Part shown: in pieces, positions 14,406-64,000 of the stretch
Layout: each line of letters starts with the position of its first letter
Position numbering within the stretch: the first letter of the stretch is position 1
Assembly: GCA_949317995.1 (NCBI GenBank)
Contig: OX439036.1
Location: forward strand, 27,239,854-27,303,853
From: Acholoe squamosa
Taxonomy: Eukaryota; Annelida; Polychaeta; Phyllodocida; Polynoidae
DNA length: 64,000 bases
Direction: 5' to 3'
The notes under the pieces: model-generated
What the model was told of the DNA's origin: nothing
Databases searched by the model: none
Seen by the model: only the letters and a program-made list of their open reading frames with translations
Program-made: the position numbers and the translations under genes

Positions 14406-14409
14406 GCTG

Positions 14410-15282
14410 TCAAAATAAGTCAATTGGGTCAGGATAGGTCAAATTAGGTCAAATATGTTGAAAATAGGTAATATTGGTCAAAAGTATGTCTATTCGGGTA
14501 GCATAGGTCAAATTATGTCAAATATGGTGAAAATAGGCCAAATTGGTCAAAAGCAGGTCAATTAGGGTTGGTTAGGACGAATTAGAGTAAATATGGTGAA
14601 ATTAGGTCAAATTGGTCAAAAGTATGTCTATTTGGGTAGCATTGGTCAAATTATGTCAAATATGGTGAAAATAGGCCAAATTGGTCAAAAGCAGGTCAAT
14701 TAGGGTAGGATAGGACAAATTAGAGTAAATATGGTGAAAATAGGTCAAATTGGTCAAAAGTATGTCTATTCGGGTAGCATAGGTCAAATTATGTCAAATA
14801 TGGTGAAAATAGGCCAAATTGGTCAAAAGCAGGTCAATTAGGGTAGGATAGGACAAATTAGAGTAAATATGGTGAAAATAGGTCAAATTGGTCAAAAGTA
14901 GGTCAATAAGGTCAGGATAGGTGAAATTAAGTCAAATAGGGTGAAATTAGATCTAATTGATAAAAAGTAGGTCGATAAGGGTAGGATAGGTCAAATTAGG
15001 TCAAATATACTGGAAAAATATGTCAAATTGGTAAAAAACAGGTCAAATAGGGTAGGATAGGACAAATTAGAGTAAATATGGCTAGATTAGGTCAAATTGG
15101 TCAAAAGTAGATAAATAATGTCAGGATAGTTGAAATTAAGTCAAATAGGGTGAAATTAGGTCTAATTGATAAAAAGTAGGTCGATAAGGGTAGGATAGGT
15201 CAAATAAGGTCAAATATGCTGGAAAAATATGTCAAATTGGTGAAAAGCAGGTCAAATAGGGTAGGATAGGACAAATTAGAGT
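14410..15282. repeat. GGTCAAAT-type array C, with 138-bp higher-order units
   Basis: Short AGGTCAAATTGGTCAAAAG-type units. The phrase GGTCAAATTATGTCAAATAT starts at 14506, 14644 and 14782, giving a higher-order period of 138 bases for about three copies. The array then continues in more diverged form. Confidence 0.85.
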
Positions 15283-15286
15283 AAAT

Positions 15287-15764
15287 GGTCACAAATCATA
15301 GAAAGTGTGCATATGGGGCCTCACATGTCATTCGCCCAGACATGTGCCCAGAATCATGAAAAATATTTCTTATAAGTATGCTTCTTTTATGATAGCAAGG
15401 ACACATCTGACATAAATGATAATGTGATTTTCTTAATCTACAGGTCAAAATAGTCTGGACCTGAGATTTTCATGGAGGTATGATGATTGTTTCTGTAGGA
15501 AATGAAGCCCCCAACATGGCTTGTAAGTTAGGCCCCTAAATGTCATTCGCCCAGACACAATTTCGCCCAGACAATTTTAGGCCCATTTTACCCCCTGGAG
15601 CCCAAAATATTCATATGGGACCATCAAAACCCATATGTAACACAAAGATCTCATCCAGCCTGACACTTTGAGCCAAAAAAATAGAGGGGGAAACTAAAAT
15701 TCGAAGAGTAGGGGCTGGAATACCTCCAAATTCGTCATATGCAAACCTTCTATGATTTTCGACC
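15287..15764. mobile_element. 478-bp TIR element nested in array C, AAAT target duplication
   Basis: Imperfect inverted repeats of about 29 bases: GGTCACAAATCATAGAAAG at the left and the reverse complement of GGTCGAAAATCATAGAAGG at the right. AAAT occurs directly outside both ends (15283-15286 and 15765-15768). Joining the flanks with one AAAT gives GAGTAAATATGGTGAAA, the phrase found in neighbouring array units, so this is a clean insertion. The interior repeats TTCGCCCAGACA. No coding frame. A 4-bp duplication occurs in several superfamilies, so I do not assign one. Confidence 0.85.
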
Positions 15765-15768
15765 AAAT

Positions 15769-16205
15769 ATGGTGAAATTAGGTCAAATTGGTCAAAAAAA
15801 GATAAATAATGTCAGGATAGTTCAAATTAAGTCAAATAGGGTGAAAATAGGTCTAATTGGTAAAAATTAGGTCAATAAGGGTAAGATAGGTCAAATTAGG
15901 TCAAAAATGGTGAAAACCAGTCAAATTGGTCAGAAATAGGTCGATAAGGTCAAAGTAAATTAAATTAGGTCAAACATGGTGAAAATAGGTCGAATTGGTC
16001 AAAAGTAGGTCAATTAGGTCAGGATGGGTCAATTAAGGTCATATATTGTGAAAACAGGTCATATTGATCAAAAGTAGGTCAATTAGGTCCAATAAGGTCA
16101 GGATAGATCAAATATGGTTGAGATAGATCAAATTGGTCAAAAGTAGGTCAATTTTGTCAAAATGTAGGGTATGATAGGTGAAGTAAGGTCAAATATGCTG
16201 GAAAT
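15769..16205. repeat. Array C, continuation after the nested insertion
   Basis: More diverged GGTCAAAT units on the plus strand, running up to the MITE at the symmetry centre. Confidence 0.8.
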
Positions 16206-17650: not shown

Positions 17651-17841
17651 GTAGTTGCTGGTATAGACATATAGAAAGACATAGAGTGTACCATGCTAAG
17701 CCAAAAGATACCTGTCACAAGTGGGTTTGCATTCATGAGTTGACACCTTGACAGCTTGACAGCAATGAAATGAAATTGACTTTGAACATTGATTTTGCTT
17801 TTGGACTTTAACTTTTTGTGTGAAAGTCAACTCCTTGCTCC

Positions 17842-20012
17842 ACCCACCTCCTTCTGTGTCCACACCCACCTCCCTCTATGTCCACACCCATTTTCCTCTG
17901 TGTCTACACCCACCTCCCTTTGTATCCACACCCATCTCCCTCTGTGTCCACACCTGCCCTCCCTCTATCTTCCTACCCATCCCCACTATGTCCACACCCA
18001 AAGCTCTCTGTGTCCACACCCACCTCCCTCTGTATCCACATTCATGTCCCTCTATGTTCACACCCACCTCCCTCTATGTTCACACCCACCTCCCTCTATG
18101 TCCACAGCCACCTCCTTCTATGTCCACACCCACTTACCTCTTTGTCCACACTCACTTACCTCTTTGTCCACAACCACTGACCTCTTTGTTCACACACACC
18201 TCACTCTTTGTACACACCAAACTCCCTCTATGTCAACACCCACCTCCCTCTATGTCCACACCCACCTCCTTCTGTGTCAACACCCCCACCTCCCTCTATG
18301 TCCACACCCATCTCCCTCTGTGTCCACTCTCACCTGCCTCTATGTCCACACCCACCTCCCTCTGTGTCCACACCCACTTACCTCTTTATCCACACCCCAC
18401 CTCCCTCTGTGTCAACACCCACCTCCCTCTGTGTCCACTCTCACATTTCTCTATGTTCACACCCACCTCCCTCTATGTTCACACCCACCTCCCTCTATGT
18501 CCACACCCACCTCCCTCTATGTCCACACCTACCTCCCTTTGTGTCCACTCTCACCCCCCTCTATGTCTACATAAACCTCCCTCTTTTTCCACACCAACTG
18601 CCTTCTGTGTCCACTCTCACCTCTCTCTATGGCCACATACACATCCCTCTTTGTCCACACCCATCTCCCTCTTTGTCCACTCTTACCTTCCTCTATGCCT
18701 ACACTCACATCCCTCTGTGTTCACACCCACCTCCCTCTATGTCCACACTCACATCCCTTTGTGTCCACTCTCATCCCCCTCTATTTCCACATACATCTCC
18801 CTCTCTGTCCACACCCACTGCCCTCTTTGTCCACTCTCCCCTCCCTCTATGTCCCCATCCATTTCCCTCTGTGTCCACACCCACCTCCTTCTATGTCCAC
18901 ACCCACCTCCCTCTATGTCCACACCCACTTACCTCTTTGTCCACACCCACTTTACCTTTTTGTCCACACCCACTCACCTCTATGTCCACACCCACCTCCC
19001 TCCATTTCCACAACCACCTCCCTCTTTGTCCACACCACCTCCATCTGTGTCCACTCTCACCTCCCTGAATGCCCACACTCACATCCCTCTGTGTTCACAC
19101 ATCCCTTTGTGTCCACTCTCATCTCCCTCTATGTCCACATCCATTTCCCTCTCTATCCACACCCACTGCCCTCTTTGTCCACTCTCCCCTCCCTTTATAT
19201 CCACATCCAATCCCCTCTATGTCAACACCCACCTCACGCTTTGTTCACATCCGCCTCCCTCTATGTCCACACTCACATCCCTTTGTGTCCACTCTCATCT
19301 CCCTCTATGTTCACATACACCTCCCTCTCTGTCCTCACCCACTGCCCTGTTTTTCCACTCTCCCCTCCCTCTATGTCCACATCCATTTCCCTCTGTGTCC
19401 ACACCACCTCCCTCTGTGTCCACACCACCTCACTCTTTCTCCACTCTCACCTCGCTCTATGCCCAACCTCACATCCCTCTGTGTTCACACTCACATCCCT
19501 TTGTGTCCACTCTCATCTCCCTCTATGTCCACATCCATTTGCCTCTTTGTCCACACCCACCTCCCTCTGTGTCCACATCCAGCTTCCTCTATGTCAGCAC
19601 CCACCTCACTCTGTGTTCACACCCACCTCCCCTATGTCCACGGCCACCTCCCTCATTATCCACACCCACCTCCCTCTATGTCAACACTCAATTCCCTCTT
19701 TGTTCACACCCACCTCCCTCTGTGTTTACACCCACCTCCCTCTGGGTCCACACCCACCTCCCTCTATGTCCACACCCGCCCTCCCTTTGGGTCTACCCAA
19801 ATCCCTCTATGTCCACATCCAAATCACTCTCTATCCACACCCACCTCCCTCCGTGTCCACACCCACCTCCCTCTATCTTCCTACACATCCCCATTATGTC
19901 CACAACCACCTCCCTCAGTGTCCACACCCACCTCCCCCTGTGTCCACTCTCACCTCCCTCTATGTCCACACCCAGCTCCCTCTATGTCCACACCTACCTC
20001 CTTCTGTTTGGT
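17842..20012. repeat. 22-bp minisatellite A, right portion (about 2.2 kb)
   Basis: Roughly a hundred diverged copies of a 22-bp unit (CCACACCCACCTCCCTCTRT plus GT), all in one orientation. Since 22 is not a multiple of three and the unit lacks stops in the forward frames, all three plus frames stay open for hundreds of codons (733, 465 and 336). Each reads the same 22-residue Ser/Thr/Pro/His-rich motif. That pattern, and the absence of any other exon evidence, mark a non-coding minisatellite. Confidence 0.9.
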
Positions 20013-36965: not shown

Positions 36966-37589
36966 GTATGGGAACTACCAAGTGCTGGGTGTGGGAACCA
37001 GCAGCTACTTGGTATGGGATCCAGTACCAGTAGCTGATTGGTGTGGAACCACCAGTTACAGTGGGTGGGAACCACCAGTTATGGGATGCTGGAACCAGCA
37101 GCTACTTGGTGTGGAACCATCAGTTATTGTGTGAGGGAAGGGGACATCCATTAATTATGTACGCATCTAGGGGGGGTGGGGGGGGGTCTGGCCAAATGCA
37201 TACAGATGTTTACAGGGTGGGGGAGGGGGGTCAGAGGCTATGAGTATGTACACATAGGGCCTAATGAATTAGGAGAAATTGAGGCATTTTTTTTTTGGGG
37301 GGGGGGTAGAAAGAGGTTGATGGTGGGTCTCTTAGTACAAAATATGGTGACTGTAGGAGAACAACCCCTTAGTCAAGTATTCAATAAGGCTACAAAAATA
37401 AGGGGAATACTTACAAAGTATGCATACCATTTTACATTTACCAGAGGGTAAAGGAAATTTTCCTGCACCCAGTAAAGGGGGGGGGGCTCCATGTGGCTCG
37501 AGTATGTTTGGTTTTGGACTTTAACTTTTTTTGTGAAAGTCAACTCTTTGCTCCAACTTCAATTTGACCCTTGTGGGCCACTGTAGTTT
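36966..37589. mobile_element. Right-arm fragment of the foldback family, with a complete end
   Basis: 36970-37138 is nearly identical to inverted array B of the main element. 37505-37589 matches its terminal repeat and continues through CTTCAATTTGACCCTTGTGG to GGGCCACTG, the exact inverse of the main copy's left end. A G-rich patch with several poly-G runs lies between. This copy supplies the right end that is missing at 17841. Confidence 0.75.
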
Positions 37590-57352: not shown

Positions 57353-59113
57353 GAGAGAGACACAACCAGCAAAGCTCAAAGTAGCTTCATCAACGGTCAC
57401 ACAGATGGGATATGGGGAGGCAGTGTGAAAAGGGAAATCCTTTCTATTCACGGGGATGGGGTCAGAGAGGGGAGAAAGGCAGTGGCTGCATCTACACGAA
57501 TCTATTATGGCGAACCATATAGCGCCGATCCCCATCGGATATTACTTGGAATGACCAGCTCAGAGGGCGTTAATGAGGCTGCCTGGTTGGGGTCACCTGT
57601 CGCCAGGGGCCGCTTATTACCTATGGGTGTGGCACCTGGTTCCCATTTCCACTCCTACCCTATATACACGGACCTTTCACAGGTGGGGCGATCAGTCTGT
57701 CACCGGCCATGACGCCCTGGACCAGGGGTTTCACTTTCAGTGAGAAGTTTAGACTCGTAGCGCCCCCTTCGGCAGGTTGGCACACAACATATTATAAATG
57801 TGGGGGGCATTTGGGTGACCTTCTCCCGCTCCACTTTTTTTCTGTTCTGTATGCGCCAAATCCAACCTTTCCCATGTCGATTCCTTTGTCTCGGCCTTCC
57901 ACAGAAAACCTGCAATATTCGGCTATTTTAACAACCATTGCTTTCTGTTCCCCATTTCGTAAGATTATACACCCTAATATCACTCAGTACCGTGCGACCT
58001 TTCCACACAATAAAACTGTATTGTTCTACTCTTTTCCAATAATGAATCTGTAGCTCTATGTGCTTTTCCACATATATCATCGGCATAACCATGGTACGTA
58101 GGCCCTATGCGTACGACCTCTCGGCTAGTTCCTGCTCCACAAGGGTTAACCCCTAACATTATGAATCATACATCCCATAGGACTGGCTTTCCCCCTCCTT
58201 TGCTGCCTGAACTCCCCTCGCCATACTTTCTTTCGCCACTCAATGATACAATCTGCTCTCACGACGTTATCTCGTCTACGTACACCATGGGCGATAATGG
58301 AAGCAGAAAGCTGCCATGAGGCAGACGACATCTACGCCGCTGCCTGGCCATGAATCACTTTCCTCTCCGGGAACTAGACATTGACACTAGACCCGTTTGT
58401 TTGGAGGGAGTACTGTCCGCATACGTATCGTCAGTAAATAATTCATGATAGTCTGGCGGAAAGGGAAGACCTGAATTTAAAAGGGCCCTGACACTTGTAG
58501 TAAGGGCCAACATATTTTGATGTATGCCGTACTGGCTGTGCCAAAAAGAAAACTCAGTTCCGTTTTCAGAGCCAGCTGTCTGTTGACTGACAAAGTGGGA
58601 AAGCTCCAGGTGGGGCATAACTCGAAAATAAAATTACCAGGAGGCAATGGGGGGGAAACACGCTTGCAATGATAAAAGCACGTTTGCATTAGTAGTACTA
58701 CTGCCTGAAGACAAGGTTGAACATTAAAGGATTTGGCTCGTTTATGAGTTCAAATATGACTTCCTCTGAAGCCCAGTTGCAATTTGGCAAGTTGCGACTT
58801 TTCTTTTTACTCTTGGGGCGCTTTCTTTGTTCTTGGGGGAAAATTAAATCAGATTCATGGATTATGTAAAATAAGATCATCGTTGGGCGGCCTTCAGGGC
58901 AAATACATTAAGATGAAATAATTCGATTTCTCCTAGCTTGTAACGGCTCCTTCAAATATGGGGAGATGAAGTCACAAGCCTTCAGACACCTCTCCAAACA
59001 TGGATACTTGCCGTGTTGCTATTAACACCATATAAGTCTCACAGCTTCGCGGTCATTTAAACAATGCTGTAATTGTCTTTTCGCTTTTCCAATAGTTTAC
59101 TCGACTCCAAATT

Positions 59114-59189: not shown

Positions 59190-60747
59190 GGTTACGCTAT
59201 GTAAACAGAGAGAAGAAACAACCTAACTCTGCCGTTATATATTTTTGCTTGTCCCATTACTTTACAATATATTTAAAATCCAAACCACTTATCCCTTTCT
59301 CCAGGTGGCACAATTATTATCTAATACAACGCATCGGATTCTCTTGGGAAATACCTACAGTGATGATAATTTACTGGTTATGCCGTGTCAATTTAATCAA
59401 AGCTGGGGAATGATGAAAATGATCTCTGATTTCATTCTAATGTGATTAGCTTATTGACCTGTGTATCTGAAGGACAATCTTGCGGCTTCTAATTAGAATT
59501 CCATGAAGCCTCCGGGTTTGAATCCTTCAAGTGGGCAGGGTCCAGCAGTCAGGAAGGCATTTCTCAAAACTTCTTTTTAATTTTAAACAACTTGACACAT
59601 ATATTTGAACTAAATGGTGGCACTAGAAGCGAAAGAATATGAAGGAGTGACATGTGGGAAGTCTTACAGAGGTAGTAATTGATAATTGGAGACGAGGTAC
59701 AGGCGTAAGCGTAGACTTAGGATTGCATGAGCAGTATTATAGAATGGAGAATAGGTATGGGAAAATGAGGCTCGATATTGAAACTCTTATCGCACTGTTT
59801 GCTTTTTAGGTGTATCACATCCAGTATAGTGTTGATAAGGGAATGAACACATCATAACATTGAATACCACTCCCAGGCAAACAAATGAACACCCATATCA
59901 TGACAGATTATTAGTCTTTTAGTCGTGGTTTCATACTGATACAAAGAGGACTCCGTTCATGGGATTAGAGATAAAATTATTAGAAGTATCAAGTAGTGAA
60001 GATTATCTTTAAACATACCATGTCTATTCTTTAATTAATTAATAGACACATGGGTAAATAGATAAATAGGAATGCCCGGGGAGAGACTGTTTTTGGTCAA
60101 GGGTTGCAAACCATGGACTATCCATAGAATAATGCAAAGGGCCATCCCCATATTACCAATAACCCCAAAGGCTCGGGGGCTGATAGTTCTGCTAATGGAA
60201 TGGTGAACGCTCCCATTGCCAACAGACGTGACACAGATTTCCATGAGATCCCCGCCTTTCTGATTCAATTAACAACAGAATGGGAGCGAGGAAAGAGGAG
60301 GGATTGGGGAGGGGGGCATAGAAAAAAAAAGAGAGAAGCAGGCTTTCCGTGGCACTTGTTTTGCTGGCGGTGAGACAATGGCCGCTGAGAGCAGAGTGGG
60401 ATCCCTGAATGAGCTGCTCCTGCTCCTGTGTCTTTTTCTCCTCACACCCATTTCTTTACTTTGAGGGAGGTGGCTTGGCAAGCTAATGCTATGGGTGGGA
60501 AAGCGGTTCATCTAGAACATGCGTGATCCCTTCACTTATGTTATGAATTCCTACCTAGACTTAAACATCTTTCTCATTTCAAGTCTGGCGAAAACAAGGT
60601 TCAGACACTTCATTTCCGTTCATCTTCTCTTGGAAGTTTACTATAATTTGTGGTAGTTATACTTCTGGTCAAGGAACTAGGTCATGGCGTCGATCGAGTA
60701 GCGCACGGCAATGCAGCTCCCCCATATTTCGGATTTATAGCTGTTTA
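59189..60747. other. Unassigned sequence
   Basis: No gene recognised. 60260-60480 is purine-rich with short minus-strand frames lacking domains. Confidence 0.35.
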
Positions 60748-61205
60748 AACTGACTGAATGATACTCTCTTGGGACTACCATACCATGAACACCCTTGGAA
60801 CCTATGGGTATGTAAAATTGAACTGATTTTGCTTTTGTTCAGCCACATTTTGTGATTGAAAGCAAGTCACCACTTCATGGTCCAGTGAGCAAGCTCAGGT
60901 GTGTTTATACTGCACCTACCCATACCTGTATATAGCAACTGGGTAAACACTCTAGTGTGTCAGTGCTGTAGTGTGTCAGTGTGTCAGTGCTGTGTTGGCC
61001 TAATATATACTGTGACTGAATGGTACTCTCTTCTACACACTGAAGGAGCTAAACACTCAGTGATCATTGATACTGCATAAACTGGGTATGTAAAGTGTGT
61101 TTTAGTACCTATTGGAGGAGATTCATTGTCTTAGTTCTACTGAAGTTAGACCCACACAGGTAGAGTCCCTAGTGACTGCTGCTAGGCCAAGGTAAAAATT
61201 CTACC
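60748..61205 (+). promoter_or_regulatory. Leader of the NADAR/ORF1-like locus with partial internal repeats
   Basis: TGACTGAATGATACTCTCTT near 60751 recurs as TGACTGAATGGTACTCTCTT near 61014. TGGGTATGTAAA follows each (near 60806 and 61084). Between them AGTGTGTCAGTGCTGT is repeated. Tandem leader units are common in promoters of non-LTR retrotransposons, but this is also compatible with an ordinary gene leader. No TATA box was assigned. Confidence 0.35.
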
Positions 61206-63581
61206 ATGCACTATAAGGGGGATAGTAGACGTGGGGGCAGGCAATTCAACCCTCACCACTCTCACAACATGTCTCACCGTAATGGATATCAGGACTTGGA
61301 GGAAGACCAGTGGCCTGCACCATTTATTAAGCCTGACATGAGACATAAGGTCAGTGATTCAAGGAAAAGGGAGAGGCAGTCAAGTGATGAGTCCTCACCA
61401 ACATCAGGTAGCTATGTTAGCTCATATAATGCACAGAAGCCGCTTCCTAAGAAAAGCTATTGCCCAAGTAATTCATTGTCAAATAACCCCAATCCAGATA
61501 GGCGATCTCTACCTACATCAGCGCAATCACATGACAAATCTAGCACAGTAGGTGAATCGGCAATGGAGAATCACTTAAAAGAGATAAAAGAAATGATCTC
61601 AAGGAGTGACGTGAATATTTCTGGTGAAATTCAAAATCTACGTCAACGTATGGACATTGAGAAGATGGGGTATGAACAGCGTTTTGATGACCTAGAAAGA
61701 AATCAAGACGAGGGAATTAGGGCTACAATGCGTGAAGTGGACAAACTGAGAAATCAATTTGCACAGAGTCAACAACAGGTAAATATACTTGAATCAGAGC
61801 TGAGAGAAACAATTAGGAAACTGTCATATGCTGGTGTTGCTGACCCTGATACTGATTCCCGTTTTCACTCACCTCGTCGATTTAATATAATTATCGATGG
61901 ACTCGATGAGGACATAGAAGGTGATGCATATGATCATGCACTCTACTTACTTATGGACATTGGTATTGAACTTGACCCTAGTGAATTAAAGTTCGTAACA
62001 CGCATGAACACATCATCTCCCAATCAGAAATGCAGACCTATACTAGTATGTTTCACCACTGCATGGAGGCGTGATGTTTGCCTAAAATACAAGTCTGAGC
62101 TTGACAGTATTGACAAGTATAAAAAGAAGGTGTTTATCAATGCTGATGAAGATCCCACCACCAGAAGGGTCAAAGGAATTGTGAGGAAGATAGGATGGTA
62201 TTGTAGAGAGGTGGTGAAGTGTGAGGTAACCATGAAAGGCACTCGCATATTGATTGAAGGAGTGCTTTATGATGGGCACAATCCACACAGGATCCCTGAC
62301 AGGTATAAACCCGATGATCTGCATTATGAGAATTTGGATAGGCAAGACTACAGAAGTGATGAGGTGAATCATCGTGGGAGAGACATCATTCGAGTGGGGG
62401 CTCGTAATAGATGGGATAACACAAGTGATGATAGAATGGTAAAGGATCTGACTAAAAGATACCGGCCACATGATTCACATGACAGACGACTTGATAAACA
62501 TGTATCCCATAATGGCAATGGCAGTAACGAAGTAAGAAGACCTCAAAAGCAACCGACTAGAGAGAAAAAAGGCGATCGCAATTCAAATAGTTATGTTCAC
62601 CGAGACCGCCCCCGTGACAACATTGGGCATAAGCCTTATACCCATTCAAGGGAACGCCATCAGCAAGACGGAAGCATCACACAGAGCCGCCACCTAGTGG
62701 ATAAGAAGAATACTAGCAGTCAGGAGAGAGGAAATCGTGACAAGTCGCCATCTGGAGGATCATCCGAGAATTGGTGGAGACTAAGCCCTAAGCCCGATAG
62801 TTATAGACACGCCCATGATGATGAAAATTCATCTCTAAAGCAGAAGGAAAATGAGAAGAGCCAACCTTCAGTGAAGTCAATCTTCAAAGAGAGATTAAAT
62901 ATAGCCATAGAACGAGCTGAAGGAGGTGAGTTATGTCAACGTCTGACGAATTCAGGAATGACATTCTGTGGCGCCAAATGCTTCCTAAGTAATCTCTACC
63001 CCTGCCATATTCATCACGATGGGGTAGATTTTCATAGTTCGGAGCAACTATACCAGTGGATAAAGTGCTGTGAGCATAATGACCCAACTCGAGCCGATCA
63101 AGTATTAGACACAATCACCGGCCTAGAGGCTAAAAGAGCCACGCATGGCATGAGAGAATCCGAAGAGTGGAAGAGCTCTACACGTCTAACTGCAATGAGA
63201 ATTGCTGTATCTAAAAAATTCGTCCAAGATAAAGAGTTAAAAAGACAGCTGATAACTCTGGGTGATGTCGATATAATCGAAGCCACGATGGAGGATTATT
63301 GGGGAGGCTTTGGACGTTATGGTGATCCAGTCTATGACACCGGATTATACACAGGCAAAAACAATCTGGGCAGACTGTTAACTGATCTTCGCATACGCCT
63401 CACCAACAAAGAACGAATGAAAGGCAGCGCTGGAAAGCATGCTAAAGATGCGATGGAGAGCGAGGCTGCCGCTGACGCGCTACTCGAAAGTGAGGACTCT
63501 GATATTCTAGCGGATGATACGGACAACGCTGAATCCTCCGTCGAGCATATCTATGAAGTTGACAAAGATCAACGACAGTAA
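61206..63581 (+). CDS. ORF1-like coiled-coil/RRM-like protein fused to a NADAR domain
   Basis: A single uninterrupted 791-codon frame; the first ATG has A at -3. What is seen: a polar Ser/Arg/His-rich N-terminus (about 1-119); a heptad-like coiled coil (about 120-206); an RRM-like or transposase-22-like block (about 226-353) starting FNIIIDGLDED with a central VFINADEDPTTRR; a charged Arg/His/Asp/Ser linker (about 365-560); a NADAR-type domain (about 585-731) with FLSNLY, SSEQLYQ (Glu613), KKFVQ, DYWGGFG (Trp699-Gly700) and GKNNLG (717-722); and an acidic tail. Known for these families: ORF1 proteins of non-LTR retroelements pair coiled coils with RRM-like modules to bind RNA. NADAR proteins are N-glycosidases, YbiA acting on riboflavin intermediates and others removing ADP-ribose from guanine in nucleic acid. 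Inferred: an RNA-binding retroelement protein, or a domesticated one, carrying a hydrolase. The usual SEH motif reads SEQ here, so activity is uncertain. No reverse transcriptase follows in the window. Confidence 0.85.
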   Translation: MHYKGDSRRGGRQFNPHHSHNMSHRNGYQDLEEDQWPAPFIKPDMRHKVSDSRKRERQSSDESSPTSGSYVSSYNAQKPLPKKSYCPSNSLSNNPNPDRRSLPTSAQSHDKSSTVGESAMENHLKEIKEMISRSDVNISGEIQNLRQRMDIEKMGYEQRFDDLERNQDEGIRATMREVDKLRNQFAQSQQQVNILESELRETIRKLSYAGVADPDTDSRFHSPRRFNIIIDGLDEDIEGDAYDHALYLLMDIGIELDPSELKFVTRMNTSSPNQKCRPILVCFTTAWRRDVCLKYKSELDSIDKYKKKVFINADEDPTTRRVKGIVRKIGWYCREVVKCEVTMKGTRILIEGVLYDGHNPHRIPDRYKPDDLHYENLDRQDYRSDEVNHRGRDIIRVGARNRWDNTSDDRMVKDLTKRYRPHDSHDRRLDKHVSHNGNGSNEVRRPQKQPTREKKGDRNSNSYVHRDRPRDNIGHKPYTHSRERHQQDGSITQSRHLVDKKNTSSQERGNRDKSPSGGSSENWWRLSPKPDSYRHAHDDENSSLKQKENEKSQPSVKSIFKERLNIAIERAEGGELCQRLTNSGMTFCGAKCFLSNLYPCHIHHDGVDFHSSEQLYQWIKCCEHNDPTRADQVLDTITGLEAKRATHGMRESEEWKSSTRLTAMRIAVSKKFVQDKELKRQLITLGDVDIIEATMEDYWGGFGRYGDPVYDTGLYTGKNNLGRLLTDLRIRLTNKERMKGSAGKHAKDAMESEAAADALLESEDSDILADDTDNAESSVEHIYEVDKDQRQ

Positions 63582-64000
63582 GTCTTATGACCTACTGCCA
63601 CCACTTGTGAATTCATATACAGTATGACAGTTGAGATCTACCATCATGATCTCTATCTTATGCATCATGTGTTGTGAATACATGACATACTATGGTGTCT
63701 CTTCATGGAAGTACGAGATGCTGTTTTTTGACCTATGTGACTATTACCTGTATCAATGTACTGGAGCTGTGAAAACAACTTTAAAATGGTTTCAGCCAAC
63801 CAAACAGAGTCCAGACAGCTAAGACATTTCCATTGTTCCGCACACTTCTTTAATTACAATACATCAGTTCTTCAAGTGATGTCATTAGATATCTAAGAAA
63901 CTATTTTATATCGTTATTGAATTTAAATTCCTAGCAACAGAATTCTTTGGAATTTCATCGAGAGTTAAATCATCACCCTGCTTATAGATACAGGACCCTA
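63582..64000. other. Sequence downstream of the NADAR/ORF1-like frame
   Basis: AT-rich. Reading all plus frames I see no endonuclease or reverse-transcriptase motif in the 419 bases available. The 63-codon frame at 63631-63822 is not recognisable. The stop codon overlaps a good splice-donor word (GTAAGT from 63578), so this could also be the start of an intron. Confidence 0.4.

Follow-up and report, generated by a model that had tools for sequence, protein, structure and literature searches.

The window analysed here, a 64,000-nt stretch of the Acholoe squamosa genome, contains the 5' part of what is almost certainly a young, multi-copy LINE (non-LTR retrotransposon) whose ORF1 protein is fused to a NADAR domain. 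Both assignments, LINE for the element and NADAR for the domain, are close to certain. The domain seems to have been retained by purifying selection during element replication, as judged from one comparison of two subfamilies. We propose that this young LINE encodes an ORF1 RNP protein whose NADAR would erase ADP-ribose from guanines of the element's RNA or cDNA; the chances that this joint claim holds in all its parts are evenly balanced.

The LINE is about 7.23 kb long, starts at position 60675 and runs some 3.9 kb past the window end. All of its features lie on the + strand. The 5' end and 5' UTR (60675-61205) were defined as a block common to the 5'-complete copies, from L106 529-534 (L106 is the window copy, C2:27300000-27309999). 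ORF1 (61206-63581, 791 aa) is composed of an N-terminus with a net charge of +5, a coiled coil, a conserved core, a charged linker, the NADAR domain and an acidic tail. The inter-ORF region of 1,137 nt occupies 63582-64000 of the window and continues to window-equivalent 64718. It is followed by the ORF2 open frame of 959 codons (window-equivalent 64719-67595) and by the 3' end at window-equivalent ~67905 with an (AAACTC)n tail, read in L106. ORF2 of the window copy matched the Pfam families RVT_1 (3.8e-39) and Exo_endo_phos (1.5e-5). It was collinear with human L1 ORF2p over ~720 residues (E 1.2e-15), and R2 proteins matched at 2e-12 or weaker; the LINE reverse transcriptases (RTs) matched in PDB were these L1 and R2 proteins. 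A 20-bp near-repeat was also seen in the 5' UTR (60751-60770 and 61013-61032), slightly above 30 shuffles, and is possibly a promoter module.

A search of the own genome (1.48 Gb, 63 contigs) detected at least 60 places matching the ORF1 protein, a lower bound based on 57 scored among 3,229 first-look candidates. At least 26 of these places, including that of the window, matched the protein with 97-100% identity and a coverage of at least 90%, and they were distributed over many contigs. Nineteen of the 26 lacked an internal stop, and the ORF1 of L107 was the same as the window ORF1 at every base. The copy search settled the mobile-element question. The first-pass annotation had read ORF1 as an ORF1-like protein of a retroelement or of a gene derived from one; the retroelement reading is borne out by its multiple copies and by the downstream ORF2 with endonuclease and RT. 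The at least 26 near-full-length places and the downstream frames exclude the case named there as refuting, a single-copy gene with introns.

Besides the window copy, 17 more places were examined as stretches of 10 kb, and 12 of all these belonged to the family of the window. All 12 family copies had a long frame downstream of ORF1. Ten displayed an 801-codon frame (ORF1) and a 959-codon frame (ORF2), while the second frame was shorter in L110 and L122 (877 and 802 codons, respectively). Nine shared the 5' end, which differed by a few bases from copy to copy, and a common block of 7.22-7.24 kb; in each of them its own flank preceded the common start at about window 60675. In L111, L113 and L122 the match to the family began further in. 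The 3' end was common to all 12 copies and consisted of CAATAAACTTGTTA followed by a variable number of AAACTC-type repeats. The flanks were distinct among the 12 copies. No long terminal repeats were found, nor any repeats of at least 20 nt within L106 1-9000. Target-site duplications in the 12 copies did not stand out from the control, the longest common flank word having a mean of 4.9 in own pairs versus 4.6 in mismatched pairs. The element encodes RT and endonuclease in ORF2, is present as dispersed copies with defined ends, has a 3' simple-repeat tail and lacks LTRs, and it is therefore a LINE.

In ORF1, the coiled coil covers residues 119-209 (61560-61832, + strand; AF2 helices 119-133 and 138-209). 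It contains one RhxxhE motif, at residue 159; when the coiled coil was shuffled, the motif turned up in 1105 of 10000 cases, and it therefore gives weak support for a trimer. The conserved core that follows (residues 216-366, 61851-62304, + strand) is 44-53% identical in three related ORF1s. The search with the ORF1 protein also matched six more distant ORF1 relatives at 37-49% identity. The core has an RRM/CTD-like order of elements; this strand and helix order would suit RRM plus CTD and was seen in a model at pLDDT ~50. For the core, neither a sequence match nor a fold match reached significance. It is the putative RRM/CTD part of the protein and probably binds RNA. The window ORF1 has a positive N-terminus and a coiled coil before a conserved core in common with human L1ORF1p (PMC5940361), from which it differs by the extra linker and NADAR and by a core without a significant match. 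A search of viral contigs detected no relatives of the ORF1 core and none of NADAR alone.

The NADAR domain comprises residues 581-740 (62946-63425, + strand). A profile match and a YbiA fold were both found for the window domain and place it in the NADAR superfamily, which confirms the ORF1-NADAR fusion suggested by the first-pass annotation. For comparison, four phage NADARs were aligned with the domain, and a search with this alignment retrieved 68 viral and 25 prokaryotic loci; 65 of these 93 were taken (28 were omitted by choice, mostly near-duplicates or partial matches) and two were dropped for a stop, leaving 63 prokaryotic and phage rows. Residues named for the Phytophthora NADAR (8bau) are E43, K50, R79, W89, R93, E125 and W133, together with D130, an Asp contacting ADP-ribose through water (PMC11543638). 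E613, K620, W655, R660, E692 and W699 of the window align with 8bau E43, K50, W89, R93, E125 and W133. The catalytic-type Glu of the last strand (E692) and the Glu and Lys seven apart (E613, K620) are present, the roles of these positions being taken from PMC11543638. Among the 63 rows, E613 was kept in 62, K620 in 62, W655 in 60, E692 in 61 and W699 in 61; the R660 column contained Arg in 18 rows and Lys in another 34. In 25 other NADARs of the same genome, with near-identical copies counted apart, E613, E692 and W655 were kept in all 25, the K620 column was K in 20 and R in five, and the W699 column held another residue in eight. The first-pass annotation had also suggested that the change of SEH to SEQ may alter activity. 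This was not upheld, since Gln is ordinary after the Glu613 column (21 of the 63 rows, with His in 26) and 8bau itself has SSEQ.

A somewhat unlikely alternative is that this NADAR is an ADP-ribose reader or an altered enzyme, in which D696E, the replacement of Arg by H647 and a shortened Glu-to-Trp loop disable or redirect hydrolysis. Column 696 was Asp in 63 of 63 prokaryotic and phage rows and in 24 of the 25 other NADARs of the genome, and the window has Glu; the Asp of the D-x-x-W motif is thus absent. His647 occupies the column of R79, an ADP-ribose-contacting residue of 8bau, which was Arg in 38 of the 63 rows. A Glu-to-Trp spacing of 7 is common to all 24 rows taken as LINE-type, the window among them and several of them near-identical copies, versus 8 (23 rows) or 9 (40 rows) among the 63 and 8 in the stand-alone NADARs L124 and L125. 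However, E613, K620, W655, E692 and W699 are retained, the charge is unchanged by D to E, and four of five related ORF1 NADARs combine Asp at column 696 with the same spacing of 7 (the fifth, L114, has Asn). NADAR subfamilies have been defined by the residue aligned with E692 and not by this Asp, therefore the filing as a YbiA-type NADAR stands despite E696. In the predicted structure, the block pLDDT falls to 59-89 at ~685-724, which holds E692 to G717, so that the pocket geometry is less certain there.

The 12 family copies formed two subfamilies of eight and four, and fixed differences were counted between them, which amounts to one comparison. ORF1 showed 18 synonymous and eight nonsynonymous fixed differences (dN/dS ~0.12). 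Those within the NADAR were six synonymous and none nonsynonymous (p 1e-4 versus the site ratio), and the core (210-370) had four and none. Synonymous and nonsynonymous differences were three and one in the coiled coil and three and two in the linker, with none in the tail. ORF2 displayed 22 synonymous and seven nonsynonymous differences among the 10 full-frame copies, of which eight and none were in the RT. Constraint was little or weaker in the N-terminus (two synonymous, five nonsynonymous) and in the EEP endonuclease (four and four). Changes confined to single copies of ORF1 (12 synonymous, 25 nonsynonymous) were near the expectation for little constraint after insertion. The selection on the NADAR is the strongest evidence that the domain serves the element.

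By analogy with characterised NADARs, the domain may act as a nucleic-acid eraser, for which we see about even chances or a little less. According to PMC3905857, ORF1 proteins are believed to join the RNA of their element in RNPs. The ORF1 protein would assemble on the RNA of its element, where coiled coil and core would place many NADAR domains. The tethered NADAR might then strip ADP-ribose from guanines of the element RNA or first-strand cDNA, which would keep host or stress ADP-ribosyltransferases from blocking reverse transcription. An eraser that would counter a host ADP-ribosyltransferase was also the hypothesis of the first-pass annotation. NADARs studied to date remove ADP-ribose from guanine in DNA (PMC11543638) and in RNA, and in a hydrolase panel they were the only family reversing guanosine ADP-ribosylation in RNA (PMC11833690). 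The NADAR protein SNA-3 is essential for nematode trans-splicing, and mutants in two of its NADAR domains were defective (PMC9303266); the triple change in a defective SNA-3 NADAR included the residue that apparently corresponds to E696 (PMC11543638, PMC9303266). The role of NADARs in animals has been called unclear (PMC11125620).

It is unlikely that the NADAR of this LINE acts instead on soluble NAD-derived molecules, such as ADP-ribose derivatives or cyclic ADP-ribose-like signals, or on nucleotide-damage metabolites. YbiA is an N-glycosidase on riboflavin intermediates (PMC9303266), and viral NADARs, above all those of phages, might prefer soluble ADP-ribose derivatives (PMC9503650). However, the same source proposes soluble targets for phages only and macromolecular ones where animal RNA viruses carry a NADAR, and the window domain is covalently joined to the rest of an ORF1-type protein that is expected on RNA.

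NADARs also occur in RNA and giant viruses, and structure matches in BFVD were to viral NADARs, one of them named RNA-dependent RNA polymerase [Ingleside virus]. A virus-derived insertion is nevertheless very improbable and was ruled out as the identity of the element by its LINE anatomy, namely the linked EEP endonuclease and RT, the 3' simple-repeat tail and the absence of long terminal repeats; a viral origin of the NADAR domain itself is possible. A host gene, either a domesticated ORF1 or an unrelated intronless gene, would suit the window alone, with no ORF2 in the 419 nt past the stop and no second copy in the 64 kb, but is virtually excluded at this locus by the near-full-length places on many contigs and the downstream frames in all 12 family copies.

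That retroelements carry NADARs is already published (PMC12477816). The NADAR was reported there in ORF1 of several Pacific oyster Tx1 LINEs, from Repbase hits, and in the Gypsy Pol of Ectocarpus, with RNA processing as a possible role. Like the window LINE, the oyster Tx1 elements have an ORF1 with a YbiA-family NADAR, a likeness taken from their published description (PMC12477816). The account of the oyster elements is short (PMC12477816), whereas copy number, selection and the coding stretches nearby were determined for the window LINE. The LTR retrotransposon is similar in having captured a NADAR and differs in carrying it in Pol rather than ORF1 (PMC12477816). No further link of NADARs with LINEs appeared among the matches listed, which were titles and abstract openings and had most subscription journals outside their coverage. 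New here are a complete young NADAR-LINE family in another genome with selection on the domain, the common spacing of 7 together with Glu696 and His647 in the window family, and the many NADAR candidates of the genome with their pairing with endonuclease or SGNH-like coding stretches. The element ZfL2-1, with an SGNH-esterase ORF1p, resembles the window LINE in encoding an enzyme besides endonuclease and RT (PMC3905857). Its esterase is an ORF1 domain, whereas the ORF1 enzyme of the window is a NADAR and four relatives have a separate, weakly SGNH-like ORF. None of the esterase-containing ORF1ps in RepBase was reported to have an RRM (PMC3905857), while the window ORF1 joins an enzyme domain to a putative RRM core. 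Phytophthora nicotianae NADAR (8bau) and E. coli YbiA share the fold and several active-site residues with the window domain; they are stand-alone, with Asp at column 696 and a Glu-to-Trp spacing of 8, while the window domain is fused to ORF1 and has Glu and 7.

The four relatives are L114, L115 and the near-identical pair L116/L117, in which an extra ORF of 225-237 codons follows ORF1. In L114, L116 and L117 this middle ORF lies in the frame of ORF1, past a single stop codon (TAA or TGA), and ORF2 of L116 matched RVT_1 (5.7e-44). Two of the extra ORFs were run against Pfam and came closest to an SGNH/GDSL-type hydrolase, at values that did not reach the cut-off (2.7e-4 and 1.5e-3); GDSR and GIND motifs were visible. 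The SGNH label is weak, all three Pfam values (2.7e-4, 1.5e-3 and 2.5e-3) being under the cut-off. No relic of the SGNH-like ORF was detected in the inter-ORF region of the window family by tblastn at E 1e-3.

The Pfam NADAR search of the genome gave 3,224 first-look candidates, of which 150 were scored; all 150 passed the curated cut-off, and the window family, at 68 bits, fell below the lowest of them. Loci of ~3.4 kb were examined for the best 20 NADARs, a sample biased to high scores. Two of them, L124 and L125, are possible host genes; each is a short NADAR frame standing alone (222 and 247 codons, spacing 8), and the tree placed both with a bacterial NADAR. Among the other 18, ten had an EEP coding stretch nearby, six had a stretch related to the weakly SGNH-like ORF of L136 and two had neither. 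Representatives of these neighbours matched Pfam EEP (2.9e-11 to 2.8e-16) and GDSL (2.5e-3). In L136 the usual Ser is missing (GDQR where others have GDSR), the downstream ORF of L129 matched no Pfam family at 0.01, and in L133, one of the ten EEP loci, the endonuclease match was broken and partly inverted. No RT was seen in the ~3.4 kb loci, except that L141 gave partial ORF2-like matches on its opposite strand. In the near-identical L132, L140, L141, L142 and L143, the NADAR ORF1 is followed by a single TAG and an endonuclease ORF in the same frame; stop-codon readthrough or reinitiation may be used at that TAG.

Judging by the further NADAR loci that have an endonuclease nearby, NADAR may recur as an accessory of LINEs in this genome. 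Phylogenetic analysis placed the 24 LINE-type NADARs in four well-supported clusters. A linked endonuclease was found for the cluster of the window and two others but not for the cluster with SGNH-like neighbours. The best tree split the LINE-type NADARs, its starred branches forcing at least two label changes, but one clade was not rejected (p-AU 0.27). A guild of LINEs from several divergent lineages, whose ORF1-borne NADARs would erase ADP-ribose on their own RNA or cDNA, is a tentative and rather doubtful extension, drawn from a parallel with animal RNA viruses and their macrodomains and NADARs. If it were true, the host would restrict retrotransposons by ADP-ribosylation and the elements would answer with their own erasers. 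That a recently active LINE keeps a NADAR under selection, in a genome rich in candidates for this domain, hints at a selective pressure acting on the nucleic acid of retrotransposons or on what surrounds it. Direct tests can now address whether parasitic RNA or DNA is ADP-ribosylated in animals, and whether retrotransposons and ADP-ribosylation are linked.

Elsewhere in the window, none of 30 other ORFs matched Pfam, and nine more gave one weak match, gag_pre-integrs (58358-58618, minus strand, E 0.0078, below the cut-off), which is perhaps a remnant of an LTR element. The sole tRNA call, Gly-CCC (37028-37106), runs into a tandem repeat of 23 bp (37040-37133) and is probably a false call. A 22-bp tandem array of 98.7 copies (17841-20005) contains several overlapping open frames of up to 742 codons, which are probably an artefact of the repeat. 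Tandem arrays of 69 bp with GGTCAAA-type units were located at 14409-15286 and 15764-16152.
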